This document shows positions 789-50,246 of a stretch of 64,000 nucleotides of DNA, in pieces. The DNA comes from Tissierellales bacterium (GTDB lineage: Bacteria; Bacillota; Clostridia; Tissierellales; JAOAQY01): NCBI GenBank assembly GCA_025210965.1, contig JAOAQY010000069.1, positions 1 through 64,000 of the forward strand. The letters are read 5' to 3'. Under the pieces are notes generated by a model that made no database searches, was not told the DNA's origin, and saw nothing but the letters and a program-made list of their open reading frames with translations. Made by a program: the position numbers and the translations under genes. How positions within the stretch are numbered: the stretch's first letter is position 1; every line of letters begins with the position of its first letter.

Positions 789-1307
789 ATGGAGACAATA
801 GAAAAAGTTAAAGCGGCACAAAATGGTGATTTAGACAGCATAGTTGAACTAATTTCAGTTCAAAAGCTTGTATACTATAAGATTGCTATGTCGTATTTAA
901 AGAATTCGGAAGATGCGCTTGATGCCATAGAAGAGATGACCGTAAAAATATTTTATGACATAAAAAAATTAAGAAAAGCAGAGGCCTTTTATGGTTGGAG
1001 TAAAAAAATACTTGTGAACGTATGTCTAAATATGATTAGAAGTAACAAAAAAATAGTTTATACTGATGATTTAGAAGTTTTTGAGAGAGAAGACGATGTC
1101 ATATTGAAAAAAGAGATTGAATTAGATATTGGAAATTATCTAGATCAAGTAAGCCATAAGCAGAGAGAAGCTTTAGAGCTGAAGTATTATCATGATTTAG
1201 ATTATAAGACTATTTCTGAGAAAACAAACGTTCCTGTTGGAACTGTTAAATCTAGAATATTTAATGGACTAAAAATTTTGAAAAGATGCATAGAAGGGGA
1301 AGAATAG
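789..1307 (+). CDS. ECF-type RNA polymerase sigma factor
   Basis: The 172-residue product has sigma-70 region 2 (about residues 8-80) and region 4 (about 115-165) with the helix-turn-helix run ISEKTNVPVGTVKSRIF, and lacks regions 1 and 3, as in extracytoplasmic-function sigma factors. Such factors direct RNA polymerase to a small regulon in response to envelope signals. ATG 789 has AAGGGAG eight bases upstream. The next gene, a membrane anti-sigma factor, starts one base after the stop, so the two form a classical pair. It is the first gene of an eight-gene operon that it probably drives. The signal is unknown. Confidence 0.9.
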   Translation: METIEKVKAAQNGDLDSIVELISVQKLVYYKIAMSYLKNSEDALDAIEEMTVKIFYDIKKLRKAEAFYGWSKKILVNVCLNMIRSNKKIVYTDDLEVFEREDDVILKKEIELDIGNYLDQVSHKQREALELKYYHDLDYKTISEKTNVPVGTVKSRIFNGLKILKRCIEGEE

Positions 1308-1308
1308 A

Positions 1309-2574
1309 ATGAATAATAAAGATTTGCCTAAAGAGCTGATAGGCTTAGAAGCAAGACTTAAGTCACGCCTCCTAATGGAAGCTAATAAAAAAAGAAATTC
1401 TATTATGAAACGAAGAAAATTAATAGGGATAGCAGCAAGTGTTGCAATAACATTTTCGATAGGATTGAAGCCAATAGCTTCTTTTGTAACAAATAAATTA
1501 GATGAGACTCAGATAGCTAAGATATCTAATTTTGAACCAGGATTGATGTTGGCGATAGAAAATGGTATTATGCAAGACGTTAGCGTTAATGAAAGTAGCA
1601 AAAATTTAAAAATGAGCATACAAGATGTATTAATGGATGATTCTGGAATGATGGTTTTTTATAGTATAGAAAACTTAGGAGATTATAAAGAGGCTATATT
1701 AGAAGAAATGGTATTAGAAGATGAGAATTCAGCTAAAGTTGCTAAAGGATATTTTGAAGGTCGAAATAGTGTATTAGATATAAGTAATTTGTCAAAGTAC
1801 CAGTCAAGATTGATATTTGATTTTGATAATAATGAAGTTGAATCAAAAGTGAATCTAGTAGCTAAATTTAGTGTGAAAAATAGTGATGGCAGTCTAGAGA
1901 AAATATCATATACACTACCTTTTGAAATAGACAATAAAGTGTTCGAAGGAAAAAAATCAAAGTATATAATAAATGAAAATGTAAGTACAAATGCTGGGAA
2001 AATAACGTTTAAGACTTTAGAAGAATACCCTATGAGAAATGTTGTGAGATGCGAAATAAATGAATTAGATAACGTAAAATTGTTAGATTTTGATTCTATG
2101 GCAATCGTTGATGAAGAAGGTGAAAGATATAACTATATGTATAAAAGAGGACAGAAGTTGTATTTTAGCAGTAGTTATTATAAGCCAAGTGATTCATTTA
2201 GACTTGTTGGTGCTAATATAAAGTATTTAGATGAAAATTATAAAATTGAAAATAGTATCGATTTAAATAATAAAAAGTGGATTATAAAGGGGCATGATGA
2301 ATTTGAAATAGCAGAAATGAATAAGACTGATGTAGGATATGATATATCTATTAGAATTGGGAATTTTGATATGAGGGATTTGAATTCAGATATTGAGGTT
2401 AGGTCGAATAGAGCAACTATTTCAAAGAGCAGTTTAAGCTATATAGAAAATACAAATCAAACAATACTTAATTTAAGAGTAAAAACTAATGGGAGTGATT
2501 CTTTTTTAGATTTTGAAATAGAAAATTACCCTAGAATAGAAACTAACTATTTTGATATTGAAATTGGTCGGTGA
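1309..2574 (+). CDS. Membrane-anchored anti-sigma factor (DUF4179-type)
   Basis: This 421-residue protein has a basic cytoplasmic N-terminus (about 1-36), one membrane segment (about 38-60) and a large extracytoplasmic part rich in beta-like runs. The layout and the run MLAIENGIMQDV(S)V at about 78-90 fit the DUF4179 family, found next to ECF sigma factors in Firmicutes. The N-terminal part would hold the sigma factor at the membrane until the outer domain senses a signal. There is no HCxxC zinc motif, so it is not a ZAS-type anti-sigma factor. It follows the sigma gene by one base and is followed five bases later by ABC permeases. Confidence 0.8.
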   Translation: MNNKDLPKELIGLEARLKSRLLMEANKKRNSIMKRRKLIGIAASVAITFSIGLKPIASFVTNKLDETQIAKISNFEPGLMLAIENGIMQDVSVNESSKNLKMSIQDVLMDDSGMMVFYSIENLGDYKEAILEEMVLEDENSAKVAKGYFEGRNSVLDISNLSKYQSRLIFDFDNNEVESKVNLVAKFSVKNSDGSLEKISYTLPFEIDNKVFEGKKSKYIINENVSTNAGKITFKTLEEYPMRNVVRCEINELDNVKLLDFDSMAIVDEEGERYNYMYKRGQKLYFSSSYYKPSDSFRLVGANIKYLDENYKIENSIDLNNKKWIIKGHDEFEIAEMNKTDVGYDISIRIGNFDMRDLNSDIEVRSNRATISKSSLSYIENTNQTILNLRVKTNGSDSFLDFEIENYPRIETNYFDIEIGR

Positions 2575-2578
2575 TATT

Positions 2579-3406
2579 ATGAGAAAAATACTGAAAAATT
2601 ATAGAGGTGTCAAATATATAATTCCAAGTTTGACGGGATTTCTAATTTTGTATCTGATACCTTTATTTTTAGTATTGAAGTACTCATTTCAAAAGAGTAG
2701 CTTCAATACTAGCTTCGTAGGCTTTGATAATTACATAAATATAGTGCACAATAAATCATTTTGCTTAGCGATGAATAATACGATAAAATTTGTAATAATT
2801 GCTATTCCATTGATTATTGTGCTTTCTTTTTTATTAGCATTAACAGTTTATGAAACTAAACCACCTAAATTTGTATCGCTATTTATTATATTGCCCATGG
2901 TTATACCATCTGGAAGTATAGCAGGATTTTTTAAAGAAGCTTTTGGAAGTGGAACTAATAATATATTGGAGACTAAGTATGCGATGATAATCGTCGTATT
3001 TCTATATATTTGGAGAAATACAGGATACAATTTCATTATCTATTTAGCAAGTTTTAGCAAAATTGATAGAGGAATAATAGAAGCTTCTGAAATTGATGGG
3101 ATTTCATATTTGGGAAAGATAAAACATATATTTATTCCGCTCACAGCTCCTGGAACAGCATTTGTAGGAATACTTAGCATTATCAATTCTTTTAAAATAT
3201 TTAAAGATATATTTATTATTCAAGGTGAATATCCTAATCCATCAATATATATGATGCAACATTTTTTAAATAACAAATTTAATTTTTTGAAATATGAAGA
3301 ACTAACTACAGCTGCAAATATTTTTACTCTAATGACTTTAATTTTAGTGTTCATATTTCTAAGAATTGATAGAAATTATGCGAGAAAAGTAGGGAGGCTA
3401 AAATGA
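2579..3406 (+). CDS. Carbohydrate-type ABC transporter permease (MalF/UgpA-like)
   Basis: The product is about 275 residues with six predicted membrane segments. It carries the EAA loop (IEASEIDGISYLGKIKHIFIP, about residues 170-190) through which importer permeases contact their ATPase. The family moves sugars or sugar phosphates inward as a heterodimer with a MalG-like partner, which here is the next gene (4-base overlap). I chose ATG 2579 rather than an upstream start because it lies just after the anti-sigma stop and gives the normal family N-terminus. No ATPase is encoded nearby; a shared MsmX/UgpC-type ATPase elsewhere would be needed. Confidence 0.85.
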   Translation: MRKILKNYRGVKYIIPSLTGFLILYLIPLFLVLKYSFQKSSFNTSFVGFDNYINIVHNKSFCLAMNNTIKFVIIAIPLIIVLSFLLALTVYETKPPKFVSLFIILPMVIPSGSIAGFFKEAFGSGTNNILETKYAMIIVVFLYIWRNTGYNFIIYLASFSKIDRGIIEASEIDGISYLGKIKHIFIPLTAPGTAFVGILSIINSFKIFKDIFIIQGEYPNPSIYMMQHFLNNKFNFLKYEELTTAANIFTLMTLILVFIFLRIDRNYARKVGRLK

Positions 3407-4218
3407 AAAAATTACTGAATAATCTTACAATAATAATATCAATTTTTTTTGTTATTCCAATAATGTATACATTGTTCAATTCTTTCATGGACAGCGTACA
3501 ATTAAATCATGAAGGGCTGCAATTTATTCCAAATCAATTTAATTTACATCAATATTATTTGATAATTACAGATAAAGCAAGTTATTTTAGATACTTTTTT
3601 AATTCAGCTAAAATAACAATTGGTGTTATAAGTGGTCAGGTTTTGATAAGTTTATTTGGTGCATATGGACTTTATAAAATGCCTAAAAGACTTGGAAATG
3701 TAATACTCAGTTTATATGTTTTTGCATTATTATTACCATTTCAAGTTACTCTTATACCAAACTATATAGTTTTTGAAACAATAGAAAGATTGTTTGAATT
3801 TGAAATCATTGATACACATATGGCATTGATATTGCCGGGGATTTTCTCTTCACTAGGAATATTTTTACTAAGACAGTTTATGCAAGATATTCCAAGTGCT
3901 TATCTCGAAGCAGCAGAGATTGATGGTGCTACAAATATTCAGATCTTGTTTAAGGTAATATTGCCACTTTTGAGGCCAGCTATAATATCACTTGTAGTGT
4001 TGGTTTTTATAGACAATTGGAACTTGATAGAGCAATCACTGGTTTTTATAAAAGACCCTGTAAAAGAACCACTTTCAGTTTTTTTAGAAAAAATATACAA
4101 TGGGGATTTAAAAGTTTTTTATGCAGGCTCAGTACTTTATATGGTTCCTACACTAATGATATTTTATAAAGGAGAAAAATATATAAAAGAGGGAATTATG
4201 ACTGGAGGTATAAAATAG
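3403..4218 (+). CDS. Carbohydrate-type ABC transporter permease (MalG/UgpE-like)
   Basis: This 271-residue, six-segment permease has a clear EAA loop (EAAEIDGATNIQILFKVILP) and the family-typical C-terminus with an EGxxTGGxK ending. With the preceding permease it would form the membrane part of a CUT1-type importer. It is translationally coupled to its partner by a 4-base overlap and followed two bases later by a HlyD-like adaptor, an arrangement not expected for a sugar importer. The substrate is unknown. Confidence 0.87.
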   Translation: MKKLLNNLTIIISIFFVIPIMYTLFNSFMDSVQLNHEGLQFIPNQFNLHQYYLIITDKASYFRYFFNSAKITIGVISGQVLISLFGAYGLYKMPKRLGNVILSLYVFALLLPFQVTLIPNYIVFETIERLFEFEIIDTHMALILPGIFSSLGIFLLRQFMQDIPSAYLEAAEIDGATNIQILFKVILPLLRPAIISLVVLVFIDNWNLIEQSLVFIKDPVKEPLSVFLEKIYNGDLKVFYAGSVLYMVPTLMIFYKGEKYIKEGIMTGGIK

Positions 4219-4220
4219 CG

Positions 4221-5495
4221 ATGAAATTTGATAATAAAAGGGATTTTATCATGAGCATATTGATTATATTGGGGTTATGTATATTTTTCTTGCCGAGTAT
4301 ATTTAACTATTACTTACCGAGAGTAAATACTGAAGAGATAGAACAAAGGAAAATAAAGAAGACTATATACTTAGATGCTGAATTAGAAACAGAGAATAAC
4401 TACGATATAACAATTCCTAAGAATGCAAGTGTTGAAAAGTTTTTTGTAAGGTATGGTCAATCCGTTGGAAAAGGGGTTAAGTTATTTAAATGTTCTGGTT
4501 GTTATGAAGATGAGAGACAAAAGTTAATAAGTAATTTCGATGTAGTAATGAGTGAAAATAAATTGTTTGAAACTCAAAAAAGTGATATTTTTAGAAAAAT
4601 AGAATTAAACATAGAGTCTATAAATTTAGAAAATAGAAATAAAGAGCGCTATGATTTACTATATCAAAAAAATGCTATTTCAGAGTCCGATTATCAAAAT
4701 TATAGAAGTGACTATTTTATTAAAGTTGCTGATTTAGAATCAAAAAATGCTCAACATAGGGTTGATTTGCAAAATATAAACGAAAAGTTAAGGACAAATG
4801 ACGATCTTTTGAAAAAACTAGAAGAAAGTATAGGGATAGAACAAAGTCAGAGTTTATATTATAAAGCTGATCAAGATGGAAACTATTATGCTGTAAAATC
4901 CGGACACATAGTGTATATAGATAAGAATCGAAATTTTAAAAGTACTGGAAATAAAATTTTAAGTGTGGCGATAGAGGAGAGTTATAAAGACCTTTTACTT
5001 ATAGCTTCAGTGAGCATGGATCAATCGAAGTATTTTAATGTGGGAGATTTTATTGAAATTGAATCAGATTCTTATGAAAAGCCATTTGAGACTGAGGTAG
5101 AAAATATAGGATATTTAGCAGATAAAGAAGGTAAGATTAAGATTTACATGAAAGTAGTATCAAGACCGAAAGGAAACTATTCTATAGGTAAAAGTTACAT
5201 GGGTAAAATAGAAATGAACATTGAAAATGACAATGCATATGCGGTACCGATGAGTTCGTTTTTAAACCAAAATATAGAAGTTGATAGTACGAATTATATA
5301 TATATATTGGAAAAAAATGGTTTTGCGGGAAGCAGAAAAATTAGGAGGGTAAGTGTTAGAATAAAAGAACTAGGCGATGAATATGTTCTTGGTGAATTGT
5401 CAAAAAGTGACACTGAAGATTTAAAAGAAATTATTGTTTTAAATAGCGTATCTCATAAGTTAAAAGACGGAAAGAGGGTAATGCTATGCAATTGA
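4221..5495 (+). CDS. HlyD/MFP-like membrane fusion adaptor (first copy)
   Basis: This 424-residue protein has an N-terminal membrane anchor (about 12-31). Two half-motifs of a lipoyl-like fold (about 60-90 and 215-245) are separated by a helical, charged coiled-coil region (about 95-210), then beta-barrel-like segments. This is the order in periplasmic adaptor proteins of MacAB, HlyD and RND systems; in Gram-positives such adaptors act outside the membrane next to ABC permeases. A CxxC (SGC and preceding C near residue 91-94) is present but unexplained. The gene is packed between an importer permease and a MacB-like gene, overlapping the latter by 10 bases. Confidence 0.75.
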   Translation: MKFDNKRDFIMSILIILGLCIFFLPSIFNYYLPRVNTEEIEQRKIKKTIYLDAELETENNYDITIPKNASVEKFFVRYGQSVGKGVKLFKCSGCYEDERQKLISNFDVVMSENKLFETQKSDIFRKIELNIESINLENRNKERYDLLYQKNAISESDYQNYRSDYFIKVADLESKNAQHRVDLQNINEKLRTNDDLLKKLEESIGIEQSQSLYYKADQDGNYYAVKSGHIVYIDKNRNFKSTGNKILSVAIEESYKDLLLIASVSMDQSKYFNVGDFIEIESDSYEKPFETEVENIGYLADKEGKIKIYMKVVSRPKGNYSIGKSYMGKIEMNIENDNAYAVPMSSFLNQNIEVDSTNYIYILEKNGFAGSRKIRRVSVRIKELGDEYVLGELSKSDTEDLKEIIVLNSVSHKLKDGKRVMLCN

Positions 5496-6520
5496 AAAAA
5501 CAATTTTTTTTGATAGTAGCTTTATTATTAAGTGCAATGAGTCTAATATATATTGAAAATATTTATAGCACAAAGACGATAGAGATTAGATTTACAGATT
5601 CACTTAGTGAGGAGCAGAAAGATAAAATTGAAGAATTATATGGATCAATCGAAATGGCAATTTTTTATGAAAAAAATGGTGAATATCAAGTTAGAATGAT
5701 GAGCGGAGATTTGAGAAAATTTAGATATATTAACATGACTAAAGGTGAGTTCTTTTTGAAAAATAAAGGCGCGGTTATTAGCGAAAATTTAGTTGATAAA
5801 TATTTGAAATCTGAAAGTGTTATCGGAGAAGAAATAACATATTTGAATAAAAAATTTACTGTAAGGGGGGTGTTAAAAGACGATAATTATTTATATTTGG
5901 GAATGGATGAAGAGATTATAGATGACAACTGGGATTGCAATTATATGAGCTACTTGATGCCGAGCGAAAAGTATTTTGAAGGAAAATTGAGTGAAATAAA
6001 AAACTCTTTAAAGTCATGGGGAGTTGAAATTTTAAGTGTTAAAGTATATTTGGAGTTGACTTATATTTTTAGAAATATTATATTTTTAGTATTTATAGCT
6101 TTATTTTGGGAATTTGCAATTGTTTTTAGAAAAAAATTTGTGCAGTTATTTAAGAATTTAAAAGATAATTATGAAATGCAATACCATAAAATGAGTTTAG
6201 GCAAATATTTGATTAAAAATTATAATCTAATAGCCAAGACTATTGTTAGTTTAGTGTCAGTGTTTATATTTTATTTCGTAGTGTTTTTGCTTATAAGAGA
6301 AATAAAAATTATAGGAAGATATATTCCAGAAGATTTTTTATCGGTAGGTAAAATTATAGATTCTTTCAAAGTTTTTAAATTAGATATATATAAATTATTT
6401 TATTTAGGATTTAATGAATATGAAATTGATGTGTTAAAGGTTATTGTTTGGGATTTTTTATGTATTGGTATCATTTTTGAAATTTTTAGGAGGTGCAAAT
6501 TTGGCAAAAAAAATAATTAA
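5486..6520 (+). CDS. MacB/FtsX-like membrane protein without ATPase domain
   Basis: The 344-residue product has one membrane segment at about 7-25, an outer domain of about 165 residues, and three further segments (about 193-213, 248-272, 318-336). That is the 4-segment topology of MacB/FtsX permeases. The outer domain includes a stretch like the MacB core (AVISENLVDKYL ... VIGEEITYLNKKFTVRGVL). The last part is divergent and I see no ATPase domain or ATPase gene beside it. It lies between two adaptor genes and overlaps both. Function as an exporter or mechanotransmission protein is inferred from topology and context only. Confidence 0.55.
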   Translation: MQLKKQFFLIVALLLSAMSLIYIENIYSTKTIEIRFTDSLSEEQKDKIEELYGSIEMAIFYEKNGEYQVRMMSGDLRKFRYINMTKGEFFLKNKGAVISENLVDKYLKSESVIGEEITYLNKKFTVRGVLKDDNYLYLGMDEEIIDDNWDCNYMSYLMPSEKYFEGKLSEIKNSLKSWGVEILSVKVYLELTYIFRNIIFLVFIALFWEFAIVFRKKFVQLFKNLKDNYEMQYHKMSLGKYLIKNYNLIAKTIVSLVSVFIFYFVVFLLIREIKIIGRYIPEDFLSVGKIIDSFKVFKLDIYKLFYLGFNEYEIDVLKVIVWDFLCIGIIFEIFRRCKFGKKNN

Positions 6521-7748
6521 TATAATAGCTGATGTTCTTTTTGCTTTTTTTGCTATAATTTTCATTTTGGGTTTTTTTTCAGAACAAATCATTGATATAT
6601 TTATGCCGAAAGTTAATATAATGATTCCAAGAAATTCTGAAATTGTAAGAAGTGTAGAATGTAAAGGAATTATAAAACCAAATGAAGTTTATAAAGTTGA
6701 AGTACCTATTGAAATGCAAATAGAATCATATTTTGTAAAAAAAGGAGAGAGGGTTTCACAAAGTCAAAAAATATTTAAAGTACGAAATATAAATGATTTA
6801 ATAGTGAAATTAGAGGAAGTAAATCAATATTTAAAAGATGAGAAAGAAAAAAATGCTACATTAGTAAAATCTATAAAAGAAGAAATTCAAAGAGAAAGAA
6901 GAGACAATCTAGAATTAAAAAAACTCGTAAGAAAAAAGAAAGAAAAAGAATCGCTGATTAATTTTGGAGATTGTGATGAAATGGAGTTAGAAAAAATAAT
7001 ATTAAATGCGTCTATTATCCAGAGTAAAATAGGACAGTTAGAAGAGAAAAAAGATTTGAAATTAGCACAAAATAAGATGTCAAATAATGAGATAAAGAAG
7101 TATTTAGAACTTAAAGAAAAGCTTGAAAAATGGATAGAAATACTAAATGAAGGTCAGGGCTATTATTTGGCCGAAAGTGAAGGTGTAATCTATAATTTGA
7201 ATGAAAAATACGCATTAAAGGAGGGGGAAAGTGTTTTAGAGATTACTAGTATAGATGACTACGAGGATGTTAAGATAAAAACGACTTTGACGGCAGAACA
7301 ATTCAAAAAGGTTGGAGAACTACAACTTCTATATGCGTATGTTGATGGTAAAAAAAAGAAAGCGTACATTGATGATTTATATACTGATGAGTTAGGAAAT
7401 GTTTTTATAGAGGCGTATTTTTACAAAGAATTTGATTCTAATATAGTACTTGGAAGTAGCTATGATTGTAAGTTAGAATACAAAAAAAGATTTATGGGGA
7501 CTATGACTTTACCTAAAAGTGTTATAAAAGCGCCTATTGGCTTTGAAGAAGGAACAAGCGGATCGGTATTTGTTGCTAGAAGAGAAGAAGGAATACTTGG
7601 AGAAGAGTATTTTGTTGATGAAGAATTCGTTGATATGATAGTAGTAGGTGACTACAATGTTATAACGGAGCCACTTAAAAATCCTTATGTTATAACGACG
7701 GTTGATGATAGGATAAAAAAAGGAAAAAAAATTTTTTTAGAGAAATAA
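6501..7748 (+). CDS. HlyD/MFP-like membrane fusion adaptor (second copy)
   Basis: TTG 6501 is chosen because AGGAGG (6489-6494) lies seven bases upstream; a longer reading from 6444 has no ribosome binding site. The protein has about 415 residues: an N-terminal membrane helix (about 5-26), a lipoyl-like half near 50-90, a long charged coiled coil (about 95-215), and a second lipoyl half near 225-250 followed by beta-barrel-like segments. It shares architecture but little obvious sequence with the first adaptor, so the two may form a hetero-oligomer around the MacB-like protein encoded between them. It overlaps that gene by 20 bases. Confidence 0.75.
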   Translation: MAKKIINIIADVLFAFFAIIFILGFFSEQIIDIFMPKVNIMIPRNSEIVRSVECKGIIKPNEVYKVEVPIEMQIESYFVKKGERVSQSQKIFKVRNINDLIVKLEEVNQYLKDEKEKNATLVKSIKEEIQRERRDNLELKKLVRKKKEKESLINFGDCDEMELEKIILNASIIQSKIGQLEEKKDLKLAQNKMSNNEIKKYLELKEKLEKWIEILNEGQGYYLAESEGVIYNLNEKYALKEGESVLEITSIDDYEDVKIKTTLTAEQFKKVGELQLLYAYVDGKKKKAYIDDLYTDELGNVFIEAYFYKEFDSNIVLGSSYDCKLEYKKRFMGTMTLPKSVIKAPIGFEEGTSGSVFVARREEGILGEEYFVDEEFVDMIVVGDYNVITEPLKNPYVITTVDDRIKKGKKIFLEK

Positions 7749-7773
7749 TTTCACAATTTGAGGTGATGATTAG

Positions 7774-9105
7774 TTGAAGACTAGATGGAATGCAATTGTG
7801 ATAATGATTATAATGTTGATTGGTTTTTATTTTTATAGTGAAAATCATAGGAACTTTGACGCAGTAGAAAATGACAAAAAAAATGCAATAGAAATAGCGG
7901 TATGGGAGCTGGATTACGCTAATTGGACAGATTATGAACGGCAAATGCCATATAAATTTGTGATGGAAAATGGTATAAATGTTGTAATAAATCAGATAAA
8001 AGCTAGTAACTTGAGTGAATATCAAGATAAATTGAGAGAGCTTCTTTATAAAAAAGAAGGACCAACTTTAATTTATATTTCTAAGTTAGAATCATATAAG
8101 ACATATTCTGATAATGGAGTGGCAATGAACATTTCAGGGAAAGTTAACAACGCTAGTGAATTGTATCCCATTATGAAAAATGATTATTTTATTCCAGTAA
8201 GAGCAGAGCAGAGTCCAATAGCTATAAAAAAGGAAGTTATTGAAGGAGTAGGCTATTCGAAGGAGGAACCAGAGTTTTGGTCTATTAGAGATAAGTGGTT
8301 GAAATCGTCATGTAAAGACTTGAATTGGCAGAGATATGATGAAATTTTAGGAGATGTAATAGAAAATTTTGATTTAATAAATATTGAAAAAAGAAAGATT
8401 GATTTAACTAAAAAAGAATTTATCAGTCACTTGATAGAAGCAAAAAAAGAATTGTGGTCATCGTTATATTTAAGACCTCACAATTATTCTGTCAATGATT
8501 ATGAAAACTTGCTCTTGAATCCAAACTCAAATTTGTATCAAGAGTCAACTTTTAGACTTTTAGATGATAAGAATTTTAATTATAGGGATGTTGAATTTGA
8601 GAGAACGGTTAATTTGTTAAATCCTTTTTTATACTATGGTATTTCTAGATATGATGATTTGATAATATTAGATAATCAGAAAGCTACTAAATATATCAAT
8701 TTATCTGGATTTATAGTAAATACTAATGGGAAAAATACAAATTCCGGATTATCGTATATAAACGGGTTGATTGAGAGAAATAATCAAAAGATATTATTGG
8801 AAGGTGGTGGAAGAAATATTGGGTATCCAACTAATATGAATGCTATGTCTATTTACATTAATACAGAAGGGTACAAGTCTAGAAAAAAATTTGAAAAAAA
8901 ATATTTGAAACGAGCAAATGATAATATTTTAAGTGGAAAGTATAAGGTGATAGATAAAAATACTCAATTATATAAGGCTTTGAAATTTAAGATAGATAGA
9001 GAAATACTGAGGTTGGTATTTGAGGAAAAGACTATTGATAAGGAGAGTATGACTGAGGAACTTAGATACTTAGGAAATAGGCTAGAGCTTATGATTAATG
9101 AGTAA
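7774..9105 (+). CDS. Membrane-anchored solute-binding-like protein
   Basis: TTG 7774 follows the GAGGTGATGAT ribosome-binding region. The 443-residue protein starts with a single hydrophobic helix (about 6-23) and has no lipobox cysteine, so it is probably tethered by an uncleaved anchor. The rest resembles family 1 extracellular solute-binding proteins: an early beta-strand IEIAVWEL, a GPTLIYI segment, and a late helical region with an INTEGYKSRKKFEKKYL run. The likeness is weak. As last gene of the sigma-factor operon it could be the capture subunit for the two permeases or a sensor. I am unsure of the ligand. Confidence 0.55.
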   Translation: MKTRWNAIVIMIIMLIGFYFYSENHRNFDAVENDKKNAIEIAVWELDYANWTDYERQMPYKFVMENGINVVINQIKASNLSEYQDKLRELLYKKEGPTLIYISKLESYKTYSDNGVAMNISGKVNNASELYPIMKNDYFIPVRAEQSPIAIKKEVIEGVGYSKEEPEFWSIRDKWLKSSCKDLNWQRYDEILGDVIENFDLINIEKRKIDLTKKEFISHLIEAKKELWSSLYLRPHNYSVNDYENLLLNPNSNLYQESTFRLLDDKNFNYRDVEFERTVNLLNPFLYYGISRYDDLIILDNQKATKYINLSGFIVNTNGKNTNSGLSYINGLIERNNQKILLEGGGRNIGYPTNMNAMSIYINTEGYKSRKKFEKKYLKRANDNILSGKYKVIDKNTQLYKALKFKIDREILRLVFEEKTIDKESMTEELRYLGNRLELMINE

Positions 9106-16355: not shown

Positions 16356-17351
16356 TTGAAAGAATTTTTAAAAATATTTTTAGTAGCCTTAGTTATATTT
16401 TTGATTGTAATTGTAACCGGGGTCAGCGCGCATAAATTTTTTGAATCTGAGGAAAAAATAATTTCAAAAGAAGAGTATAAGGTTGTAGAAGAAACTAAAG
16501 AGAAACATTTAGAGAAAGTTGTTGTAGAAAAAACACCTTTGGAAGAAGCTATAGAAAACAGTGAAAGGATAAATGCGGTTTTTATGGGAATAGAGACTGA
16601 AAATCGTTCAGATGTGATTATGTTTGTAAGTTTTGATCCAGATAATTCTAGTTTGGATATAATGTCAATTCCAAGAGATTCATATTATTATGAAAAGGGA
16701 TATGAAAAATCAGATCAGAGAAAAATAAATGCAGCCTATGGAAGAAATAGAGAAGAAGGGGTTAAAATGGCGGTAGAAGATATATTAGGTGTTCCGGTTC
16801 ATTACTATATAAGTGCGAAATATTCTGGAGTTAAAGCTATAGTTGATGCAGTAGGTGGGGTTGAGGTAGATGTACCAGTTAGAATGCTTTATGATGATCC
16901 TACAGATAATCCGCCTCTACACATAAATATTAAAAAAGGAAAGCAAGTATTAGATGGAAATGATGCAATTGGTTTTTTGAGATACAGACATGGCAACATG
17001 GATCCGAATAGGAATGGAGTGTTTCTAGGAGGTTACAGAGATGGTGACTTGGGTAGAGTTAGGGCACAGCAGTCTTTCATAAAATCAACTATAAAGAAAG
17101 TGTTAGGGAATAATTTTCTATCAGTAGCTAAAACGGCATTATCATATGTAAAAACGAATGCTGGGATGGCAGAAGTATTGTATTACAATGATGATTTGAT
17201 AAAGTTAGATATAGAGAATATACATTTCAGTACGTTACCAGGAATAGCAGAAAAACGAACGTATGGTGGATGGGAATTGTCATATTTTAGTATAGACGAA
17301 GACGAGGTAGAGACATTTATAAATAATCTATACGGGATAGAATCAATATAA
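16356..17351 (+). CDS. LytR-CpsA-Psr (LCP) family protein, first copy
   Basis: TTG 16356 is the only start after the GAGGTCGGTGAT ribosome-binding region. The 331-residue protein has a membrane anchor (about 6-26), a charged K/E-rich linker (about 30-65) and an LCP domain (about 70-330) with RSDVIMFVSFDP, SIPRDSYYY, a conserved GFLRYRH and DLGRVRAQQ, the arginine and aspartate motifs that bind the polyprenyl diphosphate. LCP enzymes transfer glycopolymers from lipid carriers onto peptidoglycan outside the cell. It is the first of two tandem copies that are very similar in the catalytic core. Confidence 0.92.
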   Translation: MKEFLKIFLVALVIFLIVIVTGVSAHKFFESEEKIISKEEYKVVEETKEKHLEKVVVEKTPLEEAIENSERINAVFMGIETENRSDVIMFVSFDPDNSSLDIMSIPRDSYYYEKGYEKSDQRKINAAYGRNREEGVKMAVEDILGVPVHYYISAKYSGVKAIVDAVGGVEVDVPVRMLYDDPTDNPPLHINIKKGKQVLDGNDAIGFLRYRHGNMDPNRNGVFLGGYRDGDLGRVRAQQSFIKSTIKKVLGNNFLSVAKTALSYVKTNAGMAEVLYYNDDLIKLDIENIHFSTLPGIAEKRTYGGWELSYFSIDEDEVETFINNLYGIESI

Positions 17352-17500: not shown

Positions 17501-17539
17501 ACCCTATGTGTTTAAAGAAATTAGAGGTCGGTGATTAGT

Positions 17540-18532
17540 TTGAAGGAGTTTTTGAAAGTATTTTTAGTAGCTTTAGTTGTGTTTTTGATTGCAATTGGGG
17601 CAGGGGTTGGTGCGTACAAATTTTTTGCACCTGAGAAAAAAGCAATTGTAAAAGTGGAAGAAAAGCCTATAGAAGAGGTTATTGAAGTTGAAAAGGTGGA
17701 AGAAGTTGTTCCAGAAAAAACACCTTTAGAAAAAGCTATAGAAAATAGTGAGAGAGTAAATGCAGTTTTTATGGGGATTGAAACGGAGAACCGTTCAGAT
17801 GTGATTATGTTTATAAGTTTTGACCCGGAAACGAGCAAATTAGATGTAATTTCTATTCCAAGAGATACATACTATTACGAAGCAGGTCATGAGAGTGCTG
17901 GTCAGAGAAAGATAAATGCAGCTTATGGACGAAGGCGAGAAGAAGGTGTCGAGGACGCTGTAGAAAATATACTAGGAGTTCCTATCCATTACTATGCGAG
18001 TATAAAATATTCTGGTGTTAGAGCCATAGTTGATGCTATAGGTGGTGTAAAGGTAAATGTACCAGTTAGAATGTTGTATGATGATCCAACAGATAACCCG
18101 CCATTGCACATTAATATTCAAAAAGGTACACAAGTACTAAAAGGGAATGATGCAGTAGGATTTTTGAGATATAGGCATGGTAATATGGATCCTGATAGAG
18201 ATGGAGTATTTCTTGGTGGATATCCAAATGGAGACTTAGGAAGAGTTAGAGCACAGCAAGCTTTTGTAAAATCAGCTATTCAGCAAGCTTTATCTCTAAA
18301 GTTTTCATCGGTAGTTAGAACTGCACTTCCTTATGTTAAGACAAATGCAGGTATGAGTGAGATACTTTTTTATCAGGAAAATTTATTGGGAATTACTTCT
18401 GATAAGATAACGATGGGAACTTTACCTGGTGATGCGAAAATGATGACATATAGCGGTGAGAGACTGTCTTACTTTGAAGCAAGTGAATCAGAAATAGAAA
18501 AACTTGTAAAGAAATTGTATGATGTAAAGTAG
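17540..18532 (+). CDS. LytR-CpsA-Psr (LCP) family protein, second copy
   Basis: TTG 17540 is chosen because it aligns with the forced TTG start of the first copy; a GTG at 17531 is possible but falls inside the ribosome-binding region. The product is 330 residues, with a membrane helix (about 5-26), an E/K/V-rich linker and an LCP domain with the same motifs (SIPRDTYYY, VGFLRYRHGNMDPDRDG, DLGRVRAQQ). It links secondary polymers to the wall, as the first copy does. The linkers and C-termini differ more than the core, suggesting divergence of partner or polymer specificity. Confidence 0.92.
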   Translation: MKEFLKVFLVALVVFLIAIGAGVGAYKFFAPEKKAIVKVEEKPIEEVIEVEKVEEVVPEKTPLEKAIENSERVNAVFMGIETENRSDVIMFISFDPETSKLDVISIPRDTYYYEAGHESAGQRKINAAYGRRREEGVEDAVENILGVPIHYYASIKYSGVRAIVDAIGGVKVNVPVRMLYDDPTDNPPLHINIQKGTQVLKGNDAVGFLRYRHGNMDPDRDGVFLGGYPNGDLGRVRAQQAFVKSAIQQALSLKFSSVVRTALPYVKTNAGMSEILFYQENLLGITSDKITMGTLPGDAKMMTYSGERLSYFEASESEIEKLVKKLYDVK

Positions 18533-49110: not shown

Positions 49111-49677
49111 ATGTACACGTTAGATTCACTTGAACAGATATGCCATGGCTGCCGAAAGTGTAAACTAGGAGAAACTAGAAATCAATTGGTATTTGGAAAA
49201 GGTAAAGAAGATGCTGATATGATGCTTATTGGCGAAGGTCCGGGCTATAATGAAGATCAGCAGGGAATACCGTTTGTAGGAGTTGCAGGTCAATTACTAG
49301 ATAAAATATTGGCAGCTATAGAACTTAGTAAAGAGGAAGTTTATATAGCAAATATAGTTAAATGTAGGCCGCCGAATAATAGAAATCCACTTAAAGAAGA
49401 GGAAGACTCGTGCTTGCCATATTTGAGATGGCAAGTTAAAATTGTAGAGCCCCAAATTATAGTGTGTTTGGGTGCAGTAGCATCTAAGCGATTGATTGAT
49501 GAAAATTTTAGAATAACTAGAGAGCATGGAAAATGGTTTAAAAAAGGGAATTATTGGATGATTGCAACCTATCACCCAGCAGCACTTTTAAGAGATGAAT
49601 CTAAAAAAAGAGATGCATGGGATGACTGGAAGGTAATAAAAGCAAAATATGATGAACTTAAGGGGGAAATAATTTGA
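49111..49677 (+). CDS. Uracil-DNA glycosylase, family 4 (iron-sulfur)
   Basis: The 188-residue protein removes uracil from DNA to start base-excision repair. The four Fe-S ligands of family 4 are present: C14 and C17 (CHGCRKC), C85 (KCRPP) and C101 (DSCLPYL). The active-site motifs GEGPGYNED (41-49) and HPAALL (155-160) are present. AAAGGAGTGATCC precedes the ATG. A second, paralogous gene overlaps its stop by four bases. Confidence 0.93.
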
Positions 49678-50246
49678 ATAAAGAATTTGTAGAACGATTA
49701 AAAAAACACTTTCCTGACAAAAAATTGGTTTTTGGAGATGGAGAAAAATCAACGAAAATTTTATTGATAGGAGAAGCTCCAGGAGAACAAGAAGCTAAAC
49801 AAGGAAAACCATTTGTAGGCAAGGCTGGCAAAAATCTAGATGAATTTATATCTATTCTGAAATTACAGAGAAAAGATTTATACATAACAAATGTGGTCAA
49901 ATTTAGACCAACTAAATTAAGTGTTAAAACTGGGAAACCAATAAACAGACCCCCTAAAAAAGACGAAATAAGTAGTTTTAAACCTTATCTGATAGAAGAA
50001 ATTGAAACTATTAAACCAAAAGTTATAGTAACACTTGGAAATACTCCGTTAAAAGCACTTTTAGGAGACAAGGTAAATATAGGACAATGTCATGGTGAAA
50101 TTCAAACATTGGATTTAAATGGAATAGAATTTGACTTGATGCCGCTCTATCATCCAGCAGCTATAATATACAATCAAAGCTTAAAAGAAATATATGCGAA
50201 TGATTTGGAGCGATTAAGAACATTCTTAGAGGAGAATTTGATATGA
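49674..50246 (+). CDS. Uracil-DNA glycosylase-superfamily paralogue lacking Fe-S cysteines
   Basis: TTG 49674 overlaps the preceding stop (TTGA) after AAGGGGGAA, so translation is coupled. The 190-residue protein keeps the glycosylase motifs GEAPGEQE (33-40) and YHPAA (159-163) and the general fold. It lacks the N-terminal CxxC segment, has F77 in KFRP where the neighbour has C85, and F102 in SFKPYL where the neighbour has C101. It therefore cannot form the family 4 cluster. It also has a longer insertion around 80-97. Function could be an altered-specificity glycosylase or a partner of the first. Confidence 0.85.

Follow-up and report, generated by a model that had tools for sequence, protein, structure and literature searches.

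A CUT1-type importer gene set linked to membrane fusion adaptors in Tissierellales and other Bacillota

Gene content of the operon

We analyzed a 64,000-nucleotide stretch of DNA from a Tissierellales bacterium (assembly GCA_025210965.1, contig JAOAQY010000069.1, positions 1 to 64,000), here called the window. Its open reading frames include eight contiguous genes on the + strand that span positions 789-9105. They encode, in order, an ECF sigma factor, an anti-sigma factor, two CUT1-type ABC permeases (PermA and PermB), a membrane fusion adaptor (MFP1), a MacB-like protein, a second adaptor (MFP2), and a solute-binding protein (SBP). The recomputed intergenic gaps are 1, 4, -4, 2, -10, -20, and 25 bases, taking as the start of PermA the ATG at 2579, which is the most likely choice over the TTG at 2552. 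A terminator scan found no strong terminator inside the operon, and no ATPase gene was found in 789-9105. A first-pass annotation had described eight genes spaced -20 to 25 bases apart and no encoded ATPase, and both descriptions hold. Its family descriptions of the eight genes were likewise confirmed, by direct matches or, for the weak ones, by family profiles. In single-sequence searches, the sigma factor, PermA, PermB, and the MacB-like protein had clear matches; those of the anti-sigma factor, the adaptors, and the SBP were weak.

The sigma factor (172 aa; 789-1307) contains sigma regions 2 and 4, with Sigma70_r2 and Sigma70_r4_2 both above cut-off. Its closest group model is the SigV-like TIGR02954, at 115 bits and thus below the cut-off of 188.5. 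The membrane anti-sigma factor (1309-2574) has one transmembrane segment (TM) and matches DUF4179 and a DUF5643-like region, both under the curated Pfam cut-offs (DUF4179, 29.5 bits versus 30.1). PermA (2579-3406) and PermB (3403-4218) both match BPD_transp_1 above cut-off, and their EAA loops are intact, as the annotation had claimed (EASEIDGISYLGKIKHIFIPL and EAAEIDGATNIQILFKVILPL). The two thus form the pair of EAA-bearing permeases typical of CUT1 importers, and the family profile of PermB matches AlgM2/SugB/MalG.

The adaptors are of the MacA/HlyD type. MFP1 (4221-5495), which has one N-terminal TM, matches RND_mfp at 2.8e-9 as a single sequence, and MFP2 (6501-7748) matches HlyD_3 weakly. 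The adaptor family profile matches EmrA (2e-20) and MacA (5nik, 4dk0; 1.9e-16), identifying adaptors like the MacA-like ones of MacAB/YknXYZ transporters. The SBP (7774-9105) carries a hydrophobic anchor at its N terminus and has no lipobox. It gave no direct family match in a single-sequence search, and its family profile matches sugar-binding proteins, CbpC and YesO among them. Its AlphaFold model (pLDDT 72.4) matches sugar-binding proteins in Foldseek at 8e-11 with modest TM-scores, and the corresponding SBPs of relatives match SBP_bac_1/8. These results place it among the cluster-1 solute-binding proteins of CUT1 importers.

Elsewhere in the window, we noted by eye a tandem pair of LytR-CpsA-Psr-like proteins (16356-17351 and 17531-18532) and two overlapping tandem paralogous genes resembling uracil-DNA glycosylases (49111-49677 and 49674-50246).

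Conservation and descent of the adaptor-linked module

We annotated 118 related loci with iterated profiles. These loci were selected by PermB similarity, and the counts therefore describe that branch rather than all importers. An MFP gene is the next gene after PermB in 109 of the 118 loci, a sugar-type SBP lies in the same run in 98, and a MacB-like gene does so in 79. The importer-adaptor combination noticed in the first-pass annotation recurs in other genomes, and the permeases and adaptors of relatives do not occupy the separate loci that would have spoken against one combined system. L009, L043, and L045, from three genomes that all belong to one other family, have exactly the window's order PermA-PermB-MFP1-MacB-like-MFP2-SBP.

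Of 249 whole genomes of the order that were searched, 34 hold PermB relatives at E<=1e-30. Scanning GTDB genomes gave 80 loci, with named genera including Paenibacillus, Ruminococcus, Alkaliphilus, Maledivibacter, Lutispora, and Desulfotruncus, and the adaptor-linked module spans Clostridia and Bacilli. In a phylum-wide sample, seven of the eight PermB matches better than about 1e-47 were accompanied by an MFP, the exception (L191) being a short contig fragment; matches at 1e-39 to 1e-35 were without one. The hybrid importer-adaptor gene set is not a local accident.

We constructed a quick PermB tree (104 rows, without bootstraps, midpoint-rooted). A single branch (SH-aLRT 100, with 1.21 changes per column along its stem) holds 80 MFP-linked permeases together with eight further ones, and ordinary CUT1 permeases, including four of the source genome, fall outside it. 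The MFP-linkage label requires 3 changes on this tree versus 21.7 in shuffles. Among the eight exceptions, seven are PermA-PermB fusions that arise within the branch, and the eighth is the truncated L191. The absence of an adaptor in the fused-permease sub-branch is most simply a secondary loss. On this phylogeny the adaptor-linked module appears to have had one origin. The fused genes (L017 and L065-L070) encode proteins of about 576-594 aa with no adaptor after them, and most of these loci also have MalK.

Linkage among the proteins was measured as rank correlations of patristic distances, which partly reflect the common descent of the host genomes. Across 89 loci, the correlations were 0.91 for PermA-PermB, 0.87 for PermA-MFP, 0.83 for PermB-MFP, 0.92 for MFP-SBP, and 0.90 for PermA-SBP, so that adaptor-permease distances correlate almost as tightly as those of the two permeases. 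The MacB-like protein correlated with the other parts at 0.67-0.69 (PermB-MacB-like 0.67, 75 loci) and MalK at 0.44-0.70 (PermB-MalK 0.60, 18 loci). Thirty loci whose sequence runs on for 2.5 kb or more downstream of the MFP have no MacB-like gene, and 28 of these are from Paenibacillus. Since these 28 loci keep the MFP without a MacB-like protein, the MFP appears to partner the permeases. Together with the lower correlations of the MacB-like protein, this defines SBP-PermA-PermB-MFP as the near-constant core.

The SBPs varied in form. Of 111 module SBPs, 38 exceed 600 aa, many of them at clostridial loci (for example, L014 9113-11356 and L015 3631-5859). These long forms have an N-terminal region of about 300 residues with beta-propeller-looking repeats (for example, GNIYALKLDNSIEVFN) before the SBP_bac_1 domain. 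At L011 and L137, a single permease set is accompanied by an array of three to five paralogous SBP genes, a layout in which several specificities might feed one transporter. Undescribed surface proteins adjoin the module in Paenibacillus. At L103 (13465-15588) and L119 (13458-16406), large surface proteins of 707-982 aa with no Pfam match directly follow the SBP, and a protein resembling them occurs in the gene run of 14 loci.

ATPase supply and the MacB-like protein

A MalK/MsmX gene lies in the same run as 19 MFP modules, including one (L042) of the window's own branch. The source genome has one full-length orphan MsmX-type ATPase (contig C34, 41132-42244) with unrelated genes on both sides, which the solved MsmX structure 6yir matches at 1.9e-141. 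This is the MalK/MsmX-type ATPase with OB/TOBE domains that a CUT1 importer uses, and its pairing with PermA and PermB is putative. Full-length MsmX homologues were present in all 14 relatives examined. Four other CUT1 operons of the source genome also have no ATPase gene, and the orphan MsmX probably serves these sugar importers as well. In Bacillus subtilis, MsmX is common to several ATPase-less importers (PMC7658222). Because related operons carry MalK/MsmX and the genome has an orphan MsmX, the absence of an ATPase from the operon is ordinary sharing. Recent loss at this locus only, which the first-pass annotation had named as a counter-explanation, is ruled out, since whole branches are without the ATPase and orphan MsmX genes are present. 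The module therefore resembles MalFGK2, YesOPQ, and AraNPQ (CUT1 systems, with shared MsmX/MsmK) in its SBP, two EAA permeases, ATPase outside the operon, and orphan MsmX. It differs from them in adding a near-constant HlyD/MacA-type adaptor and, frequently, a MacB-like protein.

The MacB-like protein (5486-6520) matches MacB_PCD above cut-off (31.2 versus 27), and its family profile matches MacB and YknZ. Its AlphaFold model (pLDDT 80.6) matches MacB/YknZ in Foldseek at 3.8e-8, with low TM-scores (0.27-0.36) against full MacB. The layout is that of the MacB core, with TM1, a periplasmic core domain, and TM2-4, and no nucleotide-binding domain (NBD) was found in the protein. In MacB, the motif that couples to the ATPase lies between TM2 and TM3 and is of the type E-I-G-x-x-R-x-x-G. 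This motif was found in none of the 79 module copies, and a LolD-like match was found in 3 of the 118 gene runs. The MacB/LolD-type ATPase and coupling motif of MacAB/YknXYZ transporters are thus missing, and powering of the MacB-like protein by a LolD-type ATPase is ruled out as a general rule. By its sequence, the MacB-like protein is a MacB from which the ATPase domain and coupling motif have been lost, and would not be an engine. It is an optional accessory, and the protein that almost always accompanies the permeases is the adaptor. The likeness to YknWXYZ, MacAB, and Spr0693-0695 lies in the MacA-like adaptor and in a four-TM MacB-like protein with a periplasmic core domain; these systems differ from the module in having the MacB-type ATPase and motif and in having no importer-type permeases or SBP.

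A canonical YknXYZ-type operon is also present in the source genome (L204; contig C34, 118.8-122.7 kb), with an adaptor, a LolD-type ATPase, and a MacB at about 118.8-122.0 kb, followed by a multi-TM protein that may be a counterpart of YknW. This separate MacB has the motif EIGIRKALG, and the organism therefore keeps both kinds side by side.

Regulation and proposed function

A candidate ECF-type promoter, TGAAC-N17-TGTCTA, was read from the sequence before the sigma gene (738-765, + strand). The search pattern was taken from this site itself, so its exact match there is not independent evidence, and a scan for promoter-like sites was uninformative, giving no more of them than shuffles did (60 versus 64.3). 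Sigma/anti-sigma genes were found in none of the 118 relative loci and were seen in the window only, which rules out the pair as a conserved part of the module. Weak relatives of the anti-sigma factor were found in 8 of 249 genomes of the order, the window's own included. The lysozyme-sensing anti-sigma factor RsiV and its ECF30 relatives contain DUF4179 (PMC6066255), and the window pair resembles these SigV/RsiV systems in that an ECF sigma factor stands beside an anti-sigma factor that has one TM and a DUF4179-like region. It differs from them in scoring under curated cut-offs, in its target genes, and in its absence from other module loci.

At least 31 of the 118 loci have a response regulator and a kinase in the same run, and those that were typed are OmpR-type. 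Some loci adjoin an N-acetylmuramoyl-L-alanine amidase, a D-Ala-D-Ala carboxypeptidase, or an LCP protein. Few catabolic genes adjoin the module, one being a GH1 gene at L014, and assignment of a substrate from neighboring genes was dropped for want of consistent catabolic genes. An envelope role fits the wall-related neighbors and sensor systems no less well than nutrition does. Envelope-sensing control of the module is plausible; for the window, the case is built on gene order and the putative promoter at 738-765.

We propose that the operon probably encodes a sugar-type importer that bears an adaptor, draws its power from MsmX, and is controlled by envelope sensing; we infer the physical complex, the direction of import, the substrate, and the control by the sigma factor. 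The surface-anchored SBP would capture a ligand that is probably a glycan or derived from one and hand it to PermA-PermB, which a shared MsmX-type ATPase encoded elsewhere would drive in trans. The MFP, probably as a MacA/YknX-like ring in the wall zone, would surround or dock on the permeases and may hold or guide the binding protein and its ligand through the wall. The MacB-like protein would be an accessory membrane scaffold for the adaptor. In the source genome, the ECF sigma factor would switch the operon on when the DUF4179 anti-sigma factor senses an envelope signal.

Gram-positive bacteria have no outer membrane. Here the adaptor ring might, as a more tentative extension, belong structurally to the importer and form a conduit or a docking ring that crosses the Gram-positive wall. 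This would make the module a class of trans-wall ABC importers in which efflux-type adaptors operate inward. The role of adaptors in the Gram-positive 'periplasm', and peptidoglycan binding by YknX, have been discussed (PMC5985334).

The SBP and permeases could instead be chiefly a sensor of ligand or flux that signals through the adaptor and MacB-like protein to a regulator, either a two-component system or the anti-sigma factor, with little net transport. The response regulators and kinases in the gene runs, the sigma/anti-sigma pair in the window, the wall enzymes beside some loci, and a MacB-like protein without an NBD are consistent with such a sensing machine. However, intact EAA loops and the MalK/MsmX genes kept in 19 MFP loci suggest active transport, and many loci have no regulator alongside, so that we consider it rather unlikely. 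BceAB-type systems are comparable in that an FtsX/MacB-superfamily membrane protein lies near two-component systems in many relatives, but the module has importer permeases, an SBP, and a MacB-like architecture with an adaptor, and no LolD-type ATPase.

It is more doubtful still that the permeases, MsmX, and adaptor move cargo outward, with the SBP as acceptor or chaperone. The other known settings of MFPs are efflux and secretion machines, in keeping with the profile matches to MacA and EmrA. However, CUT1-type permeases with an SBP and MalK/MsmX are known as importers, and no outward-moving engine is encoded, the MacB-like protein having neither NBD nor coupling motif. Two independent machines under one promoter, an importer of the ordinary CUT1 kind beside the relic of a MacAB-like system, would fit the lower correlations of the MacB-like protein and the canonical adaptor-ATPase-MacB set on C34, but are very improbable given the single branch of MFP-linked permeases, the MFP kept without a MacB-like protein in 28 Paenibacillus loci, and the MFP-SBP and MFP-permease correlations of 0.83-0.92.

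The first-pass annotation is supported in its idea of one combined system and corrected in three respects. Linkage, the single branch, and the correlations speak for one system; the sigma pair is not conserved, the MacB-like protein is optional, and the missing ATPase reflects sharing.

Each part of the module is of a known type, and the combination of importer and adaptor appears to be new. Within the open-access literature searched, we found no account of an adaptor as an integral part of a CUT1 importer. The results suggest a widespread Bacillota module in which adaptor rings may also take part in import or sensing across the cell wall. Why Gram-positive bacteria keep adaptors is an open question, and a widespread, tight pairing with importers would give these proteins a new role, which could be tested directly in Paenibacillus and other culturable genera. 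It would also be a reason not to label such genes 'efflux' when genomes are annotated.
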